Source of the DNA: Candidatus Saccharimonadota bacterium | GTDB taxonomy: Bacteria > Patescibacteriota > Saccharimonadia > Saccharimonadales > Saccharimonadaceae | Assembly: GCA_030529385.1 (NCBI GenBank) | Contig: JAUMWY010000004.1 | Span: forward strand, 1-55,012 | Direction of reading: 5' to 3' | DNA length: 55,012 nucleotides | Part shown: positions 37,666-39,681 of the stretch, one piece after another | Numbering within the stretch: the stretch's first letter is position 1 | Layout of the letters: each line of letters opens with the position of its first letter | Translations under genes and position numbers: made by a program | Notes under the pieces: generated by a model | What the model was told of the DNA's origin: nothing | Seen by the model: only the letters and a program-made list of their open reading frames with translations | Databases searched by the model: none

Positions 37666-38202
37666 ATGTGTAGTGAAGTGAACGATACTCGTAATGTAAC
37701 CGATGAATTCAAAGGCCGCTCTGAGGCGGAGATTGTGGCGATGCTTGATCGGCGTAGCCATGATTTAGTGATTGCGCTGGAAAACACCGAGCGTGATTTT
37801 AATGCCGGAACGATCGTGCGCAGCGCTAATGCGTTTGGTGTGCGGCGGGTCTGTATTATTGGGCGGCGGCAGTGGAATAAGCGCGGGGCGATGATGACTG
37901 ATAAATATCTTCATGTGTCATATGTGCCAACAACTGAGGAGTTTATTGCCCAGATGCGACGGGAAGGTCGCGCTATTATTGCCATTGATAATATCCCTGG
38001 TAGTGTGCCGATGGCGCAGACGACGCTGCCAGCGCGAGCGGTGTTGGTGTTTGGTCAGGAAGGTCCGGGTATTTCGCAGGCGCTGGCGGAAACGGCTGAC
38101 CAAATTATTGCCATTGAGCAGTTTGGTTCCACGCGCAGTATTAATGTTGGCGCTGCTGCTACGGTGGCGATGTATTGCTGGCTGCAGCAAAATGTGCTAT
38201 AA
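37666..38202 (+). CDS. SPOUT (TrmH/SpoU-family) RNA 2'-O-methyltransferase
   Basis: RNA ribose methyltransferase of the SpoU/TrmH class (178 aa). Visible motifs: LVIALENTERDFNAGTIVRSANAFGVRRVCIIG (motif 1, with the Asn-x-Gly-x-Ile-x-R pattern), RAVLVFGQEGPGIS (motif 2) and IEQFGSTRSINVGAAATVAMYCW (motif 3, normally PM-G-x-SLNVSVA). The motif-3 opening QFGSTRSINVGAAAT is slightly altered but complete. Length equals the core domain without an N-terminal extension. The RNA target cannot be told. The start lacks a ribosome-binding site; an upstream in-frame start inside the GT gene at 37612 is less likely. Confidence 0.88.
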   Translation: MCSEVNDTRNVTDEFKGRSEAEIVAMLDRRSHDLVIALENTERDFNAGTIVRSANAFGVRRVCIIGRRQWNKRGAMMTDKYLHVSYVPTTEEFIAQMRREGRAIIAIDNIPGSVPMAQTTLPARAVLVFGQEGPGISQALAETADQIIAIEQFGSTRSINVGAAATVAMYCWLQQNVL

Positions 38203-38203
38203 T
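38175..38203 (+). promoter_or_regulatory. hisS leader promoter (P1)
   Basis: TTGCTG (38175-38180), 17 nt, then a perfect TATAAT (38198-38203) with an extended TGC. It lies in the last codons of the methyltransferase gene. The predicted start is about 38210, the A of the leader-peptide ATG. Confidence 0.8.
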
Positions 38204-38209
38204 AGAGAT

Positions 38210-38254
38210 ATGATTATACGACAATTCCATCATCCGCACCTGTTGCCGAGGTAG
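38210..38254 (+). CDS. His-rich leader peptide of the hisS attenuator
   Basis: A 14-codon ORF, MIIRQFHHPHLLPR, ending TAG. Three of four consecutive codons (7, 8 and 10) are histidine, just upstream of the histidyl-tRNA synthetase gene. There is no ribosome-binding site, but the ATG is exactly 7 nt after the -10 hexamer, so the transcript would start at the initiation codon. The 3' end of the ORF forms the 5' arm of the predicted antiterminator. Its proposed role is to sense His-tRNA shortage by ribosome stalling, as in the enterobacterial his and pheM leaders. Confidence 0.78.
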   Translation: MIIRQFHHPHLLPR

Positions 38255-38303
38255 GACTCATGGTTTTGTGTGACTAATATCCGCCGAGTTCTGCCTCGGC
38301 GGT
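38242..38303 (+). promoter_or_regulatory. Antiterminator of the hisS attenuator
   Basis: Bases 38245-38256 (GCCGAGGTAGGA) pair with 38289-38300 (TTCTGCCTCGGC): 12 continuous pairs, ten Watson-Crick and two G-U. Up to three further wobble pairs extend outward. It uses the loop and 3' arm of the terminator, so the two folds exclude each other. A ribosome stalled at the His codons (38228-38239) would leave 38245-38256 free; one that reaches the stop codon would cover it. Confidence 0.72.
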
Positions 38304-38306
38304 TTT
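38281..38306 (+). terminator. Intrinsic terminator (attenuator) before hisS
   Basis: CCGCCGAG (38281-38288) and CTCGGCGG (38295-38302) form a perfect 8-bp stem with loop TTCTGC, followed by TTTTG. It lies between the leader peptide and hisS, with no gene end nearby that would need it except the methyltransferase 80 nt upstream. Confidence 0.82.
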
Positions 38307-38308
38307 GA

Positions 38309-38337
38309 TTGAAAAAAGCAACGAAGTATACCATAAT
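38309..38337 (+). promoter_or_regulatory. Possible second hisS promoter (P2)
   Basis: TTGAAA (38309-38314) and CATAAT (38332-38337) are 17 nt apart, directly after the attenuator. If active it would give basal, attenuation-independent hisS transcription starting 0-3 nt from the ATG. Confidence 0.45.
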
Positions 38338-38346
38338 GGAGGTAAT

Positions 38347-39681
38347 ATGAGCAGTTTATCAACCCAAAGTTATAAAGGCGCACGAGATTATTATCCAGAG
38401 GATAAGCGCCTCCAGAATTACATTTTTGCCACTTGGCGGCGCGTGGCGGAGCAGTTTGGTTATGAGGAATATGGCGCACCGTTATTAGAGCCGCTAGAGA
38501 TTTATACCGCAAAATCAGGCCAAGAGTTAGCTAGCGAGCAAACCTACGTGTTTACTGACCGCGGTGGCCGTCAAGTGACGATTCGCCCAGAAATGACACC
38601 GACCATTTCGCGCATGGTGGCGGCGCGTCGCCAGGAGCTCCCGATGCCGGCTCGGCTGTACTCTATTGCGAACTTTATGCGCTATGAACGTCCGCAGCGG
38701 GGTCGTGAGCGTGAATTTTGGCAATTGAATGCCGATCTGTTTGGTGTCGATGGTCCGGCGGCTGACGCGGAAATTATTGAGCTGTCTTATGCGACAATTA
38801 AGGCGTTTGGGGCGCGCGACGATGATTTTGCGATTCGGGTGAATAACCGTCAGCTGATTAATCAACTGATGAGCCAGTTCCTCGGGCTTGATGTGATTGG
38901 CGCAACGATGATGGTGAAACTGCTGGATAAGAAAAACAAGATTCCGCCAGAAGAGTTTAAACGTCAAGCGATTGAGATTTTTGGCAGTGAGGCGGCGCGC
39001 GAAGGGCTGCCGAAGTTGGCGACGTTGATTGGTCTGAAGTCAGTTGATGATTTGCCGCCTGAAGTTGCTGAGTCGGCCGGCGCGTTGCAGCTACGGGAAG
39101 TAATGCGGCTGCTGGCTGATAAAGGTGTGGCGAACGCGGCGTTTGATGCGACGTTGATGCGCGGGCTTGATTATTACACCGGTACGGTGTTTGAGGTATT
39201 TGACACGGCGCCAGAAAATAACCGGGCATTGTTTGGCGGCGGGCGATACGACGGGCTGGTTGGGTTGTTTGGCGCTGAACAGACGCCAACAGTTGGCGTT
39301 GGTATGGGCGCGACGACCATGCAGCAATTTTTGGAAGTGCACAACTTACTGCCAACATTGCTGTCACGCACTGACGTCTATGTGATTGTTGTTGAGGCTG
39401 CGGCGGTGACTGGCGCTGATGCGTTGGTGCGTAAATTACGCAGTGAAGGCGTGCGAGCGGAGCTTGATATTACTGGCCGTAAGGTTGACAAGCAGCTAAA
39501 AACCGCACTGAAGAAGCAGATTCCGTTTGCGGTGTTTATTGGCATGGAAGAAGTGAATAGCGGTGCATATGTTGTAAAAAACCTTGTTGAGTCAACTGAG
39601 CAGCGGGTTGACGCTGACCGGATGGTAACAATTGTGGCTGATCGTCGGTATGACGGCGATGATGTGGCGTTTGAGGTATGA
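38347..39681 (+). CDS. hisS: Histidine--tRNA ligase
   Basis: Class II synthetase charging tRNA-His (444 aa). Motif 1 region KGARDYYPEDKRLQNYIF, motif 2 with NFMRYERPQRGREREFWQLNADLFG, the histidine-specific LMRGLDYYTGTVFEVFD, motif 3 ALFGGGRYDGLVGLFG followed by VGVGMG, and the C-terminal anticodon-binding domain (about 345-440) are all present. ATG at 38347 has GGAGGT immediately upstream; an alternative start at 38305 would lie in the attenuator. It is preceded by a promoter, a His-rich leader peptide and mutually exclusive hairpins, and followed 12 nt later by three small membrane-protein genes. Confidence 0.96.
   Translation: MSSLSTQSYKGARDYYPEDKRLQNYIFATWRRVAEQFGYEEYGAPLLEPLEIYTAKSGQELASEQTYVFTDRGGRQVTIRPEMTPTISRMVAARRQELPMPARLYSIANFMRYERPQRGREREFWQLNADLFGVDGPAADAEIIELSYATIKAFGARDDDFAIRVNNRQLINQLMSQFLGLDVIGATMMVKLLDKKNKIPPEEFKRQAIEIFGSEAAREGLPKLATLIGLKSVDDLPPEVAESAGALQLREVMRLLADKGVANAAFDATLMRGLDYYTGTVFEVFDTAPENNRALFGGGRYDGLVGLFGAEQTPTVGVGMGATTMQQFLEVHNLLPTLLSRTDVYVIVVEAAAVTGADALVRKLRSEGVRAELDITGRKVDKQLKTALKKQIPFAVFIGMEEVNSGAYVVKNLVESTEQRVDADRMVTIVADRRYDGDDVAFEV

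Follow-up and report, generated by a model that had tools for sequence, protein, structure and literature searches.

The question raised by this locus is how hisS, the gene for histidyl-tRNA synthetase (HisRS), is regulated in a member of the Saccharibacteria, tiny host-dependent epibionts with reduced genomes, and what the short sequence separating this gene from an upstream RNA methyltransferase gene contributes to it. The locus comes from a Saccharibacteria assembly of 657 kb (G000, 87% complete), with oral taxon HOT-352 and Nanosynbacter records among its named relatives, and it was analysed within a stretch of 55,012 nucleotides, called here the window. An earlier note had claimed that a histidine leader-peptide attenuator lies there. 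At the level of sequence, the element can be assigned to this class, since it combines clustered His codons, a terminator, a mutually exclusive antiterminator and histidine-related genes downstream, and we hold with high confidence that it works by ribosome-mediated transcription attenuation, tuning hisS to the level of charged tRNA-His. It belongs to a group of such elements spread across the order, also found ahead of histidine biosynthesis and peptidase genes.

The promoter P1, the 14-codon ORF whose codons 7, 8 and 10 specify His, and the 8-bp terminator with its TTTT were confirmed base for base (Table 1). The leader is about 95 nt long, with hisS directly behind the attenuator, and the stop codon of the methyltransferase gene overlaps the -10 box of the leader promoter. 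The 5' arm of the antiterminator runs from the last leader codons through the stop codon to 5 nt beyond it, the stop codon standing 7 nt past a conserved GCCG.

Table 1. Features of the locus upstream of hisS, in window coordinates.
Feature	Position	Strand	Remarks
Upstream gene, SpoU/TrmH-like RNA methyltransferase (end)	37696..38202	+	NCBIfam RlmB/TrmH family matches, all under cut-off
P1 -35 box TTGCTG	38175..38180	+	17-nt spacer to -10
P1 -10 box TATAAT	38198..38203	+	Transcription predicted to begin at 38210 or an adjacent base
Leader ORF MIIRQFHHPHLLPR + TAG, predicted leaderless	38210..38254	+	14 codons; kept in relatives
His codons 7 and 8 (CAT CAT)	38228..38233	+	17 and 14 nt before antiterminator arm, the commonest arrangement in leaders
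His codon 10 (CAC)	38237..38239	+	Starts 8 nt before GCCG of antiterminator arm
Antiterminator 5' arm TTGCCGAGGTAGGACTC	38243..38259	+	Homologous helix covaries; pairing in 50 leaders
Intrinsic terminator, 8-bp stem CCGCCGAG/CTCGGCGG, 6-nt loop, TTTT	38281..38306	+	Arms 38281-38288 (CCGCCGAG) and 38295-38302 (CTCGGCGG), TTTT 38303-38306; homologous helix covaries
Antiterminator 3' arm GAGTTCTGCCTCGGCGG	38286..38302	+	Homologous helix covaries in relatives
Promoter-like site P2 TTGAAA-17-CATAAT (inferred)	38309..38337 (38309-38314 / 38332-38337)	+	Similar sites in most relatives
hisS Shine-Dalgarno GGAGG	38338..38342	+	Direct reading
hisS, histidyl-tRNA synthetase	38347..39681	+	444 aa, 1 His; TIGR00442 equivalog above cut-off

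The 12-bp antiterminator proposed earlier (38245-38256 with 38289-38300) is real and includes two G-U pairs; counted in full, the helix runs over 17 contiguous pairs. Through it the tail of the leader pairs with the terminator along its loop, its 3' arm and some of its 5' arm, and the two competing helices have the 3' arm in common. The energy is -29.8 kcal/mol for the antiterminator duplex and -15.5 for the terminator hairpin; in untranslated RNA stability favours the antiterminator, so that read-through is expected as the default. The 76-nt region between 38235 and 38310 folds better than 200 of 200 shuffles (z -4.45). When the 55-kb window was searched for short His-rich ATG ORFs (at least three His, with an HxH among them) that have a perfect-stem terminator behind them, the leader was the sole case, counted twice on account of its two in-frame ATGs; the same search gave an average of 0.05 in 20 Markov shuffles. 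No separate 1:2 pause or protector hairpin appears in the predicted folds of the window and no conserved one was seen; weak CCG..CGG hairpins were noted by eye in longer relatives.

Two features had been overlooked in the earlier note, the 6-nt distance from the -10 box to the leader ATG and the site P2 past the terminator. Taking into account this short distance and the absence of a Shine-Dalgarno sequence, we predict a leaderless ORF, with the A of its ATG as the transcription start. A similar arrangement is general among the 50 standalone leaders described below, all of which have a -10-like hexamer 5-9 nt (mostly 6-7) before the leader start, in most cases matching at 5 or more of the 6 positions; a Shine-Dalgarno-like motif was found in one.

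From these features we infer the start site, leaderless initiation, ribosome stalling and the direction of regulation, as follows. RNA polymerase would begin the transcript with the A of the leader ATG, and the 5' AUG would be loaded directly by a ribosome. With ample His-tRNA, this ribosome would reach the TAG and cover the 5' arm of the antiterminator, allowing the terminator to form and transcription to stop. With scarce His-tRNA, it would come to a halt when codon 7 or 8, or else 10, occupies the A site, some 8-17 nt before the arm, which would then be wholly or partly free to pair with its 3' partner, so that no terminator would form and hisS would be transcribed. The attenuation geometry claimed beforehand is supported: the arm spans the stop codon, and the His codons start 8-17 nt before the arm. 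Coverage is deduced from E. coli ribosome footprints, by which the arm would be free during a stall at codon 7 or 8 and hidden once the ribosome stands on the stop codon.

Leaders were found upstream of hisS in relatives (e.g., MIYQSIHHSHLLPERVG, MNISINHHLHLSPERVG and MITFVMHHSHLSPNRVR, each ending at a stop codon), in each case followed by a GC-rich terminator and a U-run. When a sequence model built from these leaders (R1) was run, the window's own genome yielded a single match and 393 genomes of the order yielded 49; one of the latter (G079), without a terminator, was discarded, and another match (G446), a second form with a repressor tail, was left out of the standalone leaders. The remaining matches, together with three from the first round, make up a set of 50 standalone leaders from at least 13 families of Saccharimonadales. 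Of all in-frame codons in this set, 14.4% encode His, compared with 2.3% and 1.8% when the two other frames are read. The distance from the first base of the last His codon to the antiterminator arm is exactly 8 nt in 46 leaders. The commonest arrangement places further His codons 17 and 14 nt before the arm, and the stop codon lies 16 nt past the arm start in 37. In one family (f6), four leaders keep the RNA elements with a single His codon (HMQPE or HIQPE), and their sensitivity or signal may differ. Of the eight species of the window's genus that could be tested, four carry the element, that of the window included, and four lack it; it is therefore dispensable.

The alignment of relatives had been named beforehand as the check that could refute the claim, and it showed the His-rich ORF, the terminator and the exclusive antiterminator to be kept, with compensatory changes in both helices. 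Pairs were counted in a 29-sequence alignment (A2), a MAFFT alignment (A1) with misaligned terminators having been set aside. Changes on both sides affect 4 of the 7 terminator pairs, with 97.5% of cells paired, and 6 of the 12 antiterminator pairs, and most pairing is lost when the partner arms are slid against each other. The covariation score was reached by none of 500 shuffles for either helix, a count that takes related sequences as independent, and relatedness inflates shuffle-based covariation statistics. Codon choice provides an alignment-independent measure: the native last codons out-pair 95% of their synonymous recodings in 48 of the 50 leaders, and when terminators were permuted among leaders none of 10,000 permutations paired as well (mean -26.8 kcal/mol for native combinations vs -21.2), both counts again treating related sequences as independent.

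The site P2 raises the question of how much of hisS expression passes through the attenuator. Comparable sites precede hisS in most relatives (TTGCAA-17-AACAAT and similar, some also with an in-frame Shine-Dalgarno start upstream), and the best P2-like score over 91 regions averages 7.8 vs 6.5 for shuffles. P2 is predicted to give a hisS mRNA almost devoid of a 5' UTR and probably supplies basal expression, to which P1 would add a starvation-induced part; given the position of this promoter-like site past the terminator, P1 may supplement basal expression rather than govern all of it. It may even be that P2 dominates, the element being real and having little effect here because most hisS mRNA comes from P2. 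Such a reading draws on the conservation of a P2-like site near the hisS start in relatives both with and without the attenuator, and on a congener lacking it (L013, genome G006), in which TATAAT is followed directly by GGAGG and hisS. However, leader ORF, terminator and antiterminator are all intact in the window, and its codons still favour pairing, 2% of synonymous recodings of this leader pairing as well; we regard dominance of P2 as unlikely, if worth keeping in mind.

A different sensor could also be imagined, in which the nascent peptide itself arrests the ribosome or acts in trans, in place of stalling through low His-tRNA. The residues past the His codons are conserved too, as an LxPERVG end of the leader peptide. 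RNA pairing, however, accounts for the conservation of this tail, and its residues vary, being PARAE or PARSD in the repressor form and LLPR in the window, and the idea appears quite improbable.

The hairpin might, on the other hand, be an ordinary terminator of the methyltransferase gene, placed about 80 nt past its stop codon and blocking read-through, with the His-rich ORF and the alternative pairing as coincidences. Yet the element stays before hisS or his genes while the upstream sequence varies among genomes, and coincidence would have to extend to frame-specific His, fixed spacing, covariation of both helices and codon-choice effects. These comparative data refute it as a full account, and we give it scarcely any credence. 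Control by a T-box riboswitch or another aptamer, conceivable because hisS is a known T-box target in many Firmicutes (PMC2965389), can be practically dismissed, as a search of the window against Rfam, aimed at known leaders and T-boxes, returned tRNAs only, with RF00514 and the T-box models unmatched, and the leader of this element, about 95 nt in length, is occupied by a His-rich ORF conserved in frame.

hisS lies downstream in 43 of the 48 order-wide matches, directly (120-200 nt) in 17 and beyond an extra stretch, mostly with at least one other gene, in 26. The intervening genes encode fused HisG and HisE domains, HisI, HisD, M15 and M20 peptidases, and AstE/AspA-like proteins. At four loci (L217 in G478, L208 in G455, L272 in G425 and L284 in G031), a protein of 210-240 residues with a conserved Cys-rich motif is encoded beside AstE-like genes; one representative was searched and had no Pfam match. 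In the window's genome, the genes for Trp/Tyr-, Phe- and Ile/Leu/Val/Met-type synthetases (some with uncertain starts) have no upstream short ORF with a perfect-stem terminator, and the attenuator thus looks specific to hisS.

HisD was not found in the window's genome, within its 87% complete assembly, or in its congeners, and it scores above cut-off in 1 of 151 genomes of the family. Judging from this, the organism is probably a histidine auxotroph supplied from outside. Of the 444 residues of its HisRS, one is His (0.23%), the lowest share among the long ORFs of the window (2.0% overall), while six other synthetase ORFs of the genome have 2.3-3.6% and several distant CPR HisRS have zero. Such a composition may help the synthesis of the enzyme during His starvation. 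In the GTDB genera g2 and g12, many family members have a HisRS that matches the window's weakly (about 30% identity in those listed), which suggests that the synthetase gene has been replaced there.

Mid-scoring matches of a structured model (R2) led to the second form of the element, which is absent from the window. Here the His codons (e.g., HHSHLSPARAE before the stop codon) end an ORF of about 109 residues that matches Trp_repressor PF01371, with YerC/YecD TIGR02531 above cut-off in both ORFs tested. Examples are L267 (G423), L272 (G425), L284 (G031) and L279 (G118), and some 15 further loci share the C-terminal HHxHxxPAR.. motif, together with a terminator and its rival antiterminator. 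In 18 of 19 repressor-tail loci, the pairing of the native codons exceeds that of 95% of synonymous recodings; among 10,000 terminator permutations, 7 pair as well. Downstream lie hisG, hisI, hisD, peptidase genes and hisS (the last by sequence, e.g., in G425). About 12 other PF01371 proteins of the same genomes (87-112 residues) have no His tail, both forms occur together in G118 and G031, and the window's genome yielded no PF01371 protein. Some class-level R2 matches below about 32 bits (G125, the second match in G021, G009 and G058) proved on inspection to be unrelated terminators, and a phylum search beyond the class yielded matches of 24-30 bits only, generic-terminator-like by score and coverage, which were not counted.

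It is likely that the Saccharimonadales have a His attenuator of their own in two forms, one with a standalone leaderless peptide and the other using the C-terminal codons of a YerC/TrpR-family repressor as both sensor and antiterminator arm. If this is true, a single frame would encode a DNA-binding regulator and a leader peptide for the histidine and peptidase genes behind it, a case of a repressor's own C-terminal codons acting as leader peptide. A conserved starvation switch and a His-poor HisRS suggest parasites tuned to a fluctuating supply of amino acids. The element offers a compact, testable sensor and a handle on other histidine-regulated genes, among them those of the M15, M20 and AstE-like peptidases and the Cys-rich family.

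Several known systems are comparable. The enterobacterial his leader (RF00514, with the tandem His codons of hisL) likewise has a His-rich ORF, a terminator and an exclusive antiterminator, with a stop codon sited so that the terminating ribosome favours the terminator; the present element differs in being unmatched by that model, predicted leaderless and more compact, in that no conserved separate pause hairpin was seen and, in the window, in targeting hisS alone. The novelty suggested for hisS attenuation holds in part. Open-access papers yielded no account of leader-peptide attenuation for Saccharibacteria or Patescibacteria, but a histidine leader peptide had already been predicted before hisS* and hisZ in bacilli by Naville and Gautheret in 2010 (PMC2965389). 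That leader resembles ours in placing a His-codon ORF and an attenuator before a hisS-family gene, and differs, as far as its description goes, in its Firmicutes host, its hisS paralogs and its stretch of His codons (PMC2965389).

A leaderless leader has precedent in RNA-seq-documented cases before Streptomyces synthetase genes: in Streptomyces lividans, leaderless leader peptides precede leuS, trpS and thrS, and alaS has a leader peptide too (PMC8079986). Those leaders, like the present one by prediction, have no 5' UTR and stand upstream of aminoacyl-tRNA synthetase genes; they concern other amino acids, in actinobacteria, their start sites come from RNA-seq and several have no clear terminator (PMC8079986). 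As for the second form, some Firmicutes have His attenuators before his operons and a TrpR-family repressor, HisR (PMC9413887). His leader peptides with terminator and antiterminator and a TrpR-family regulator of histidine genes are thus found there as well, but the attenuators occur in lineages without HisR (PMC9413887), whereas here the His codons end the YerC/TrpR-family ORF itself. In YtgCR of Chlamydia trachomatis, cognate codons (a WWW motif) within the frame of a regulator also tie amino acid supply to transcription; in that case, however, starvation lowers the regulator itself via termination, and there is no C-terminal leader with an antiterminator for downstream genes (PMC7755916). 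What is new here is the lineage, the compact RNA topology and the repressor-tail variant, and it is the predicted leaderless, compact design, together with the repressor-tail form, that sets this element apart from the classical His attenuators.
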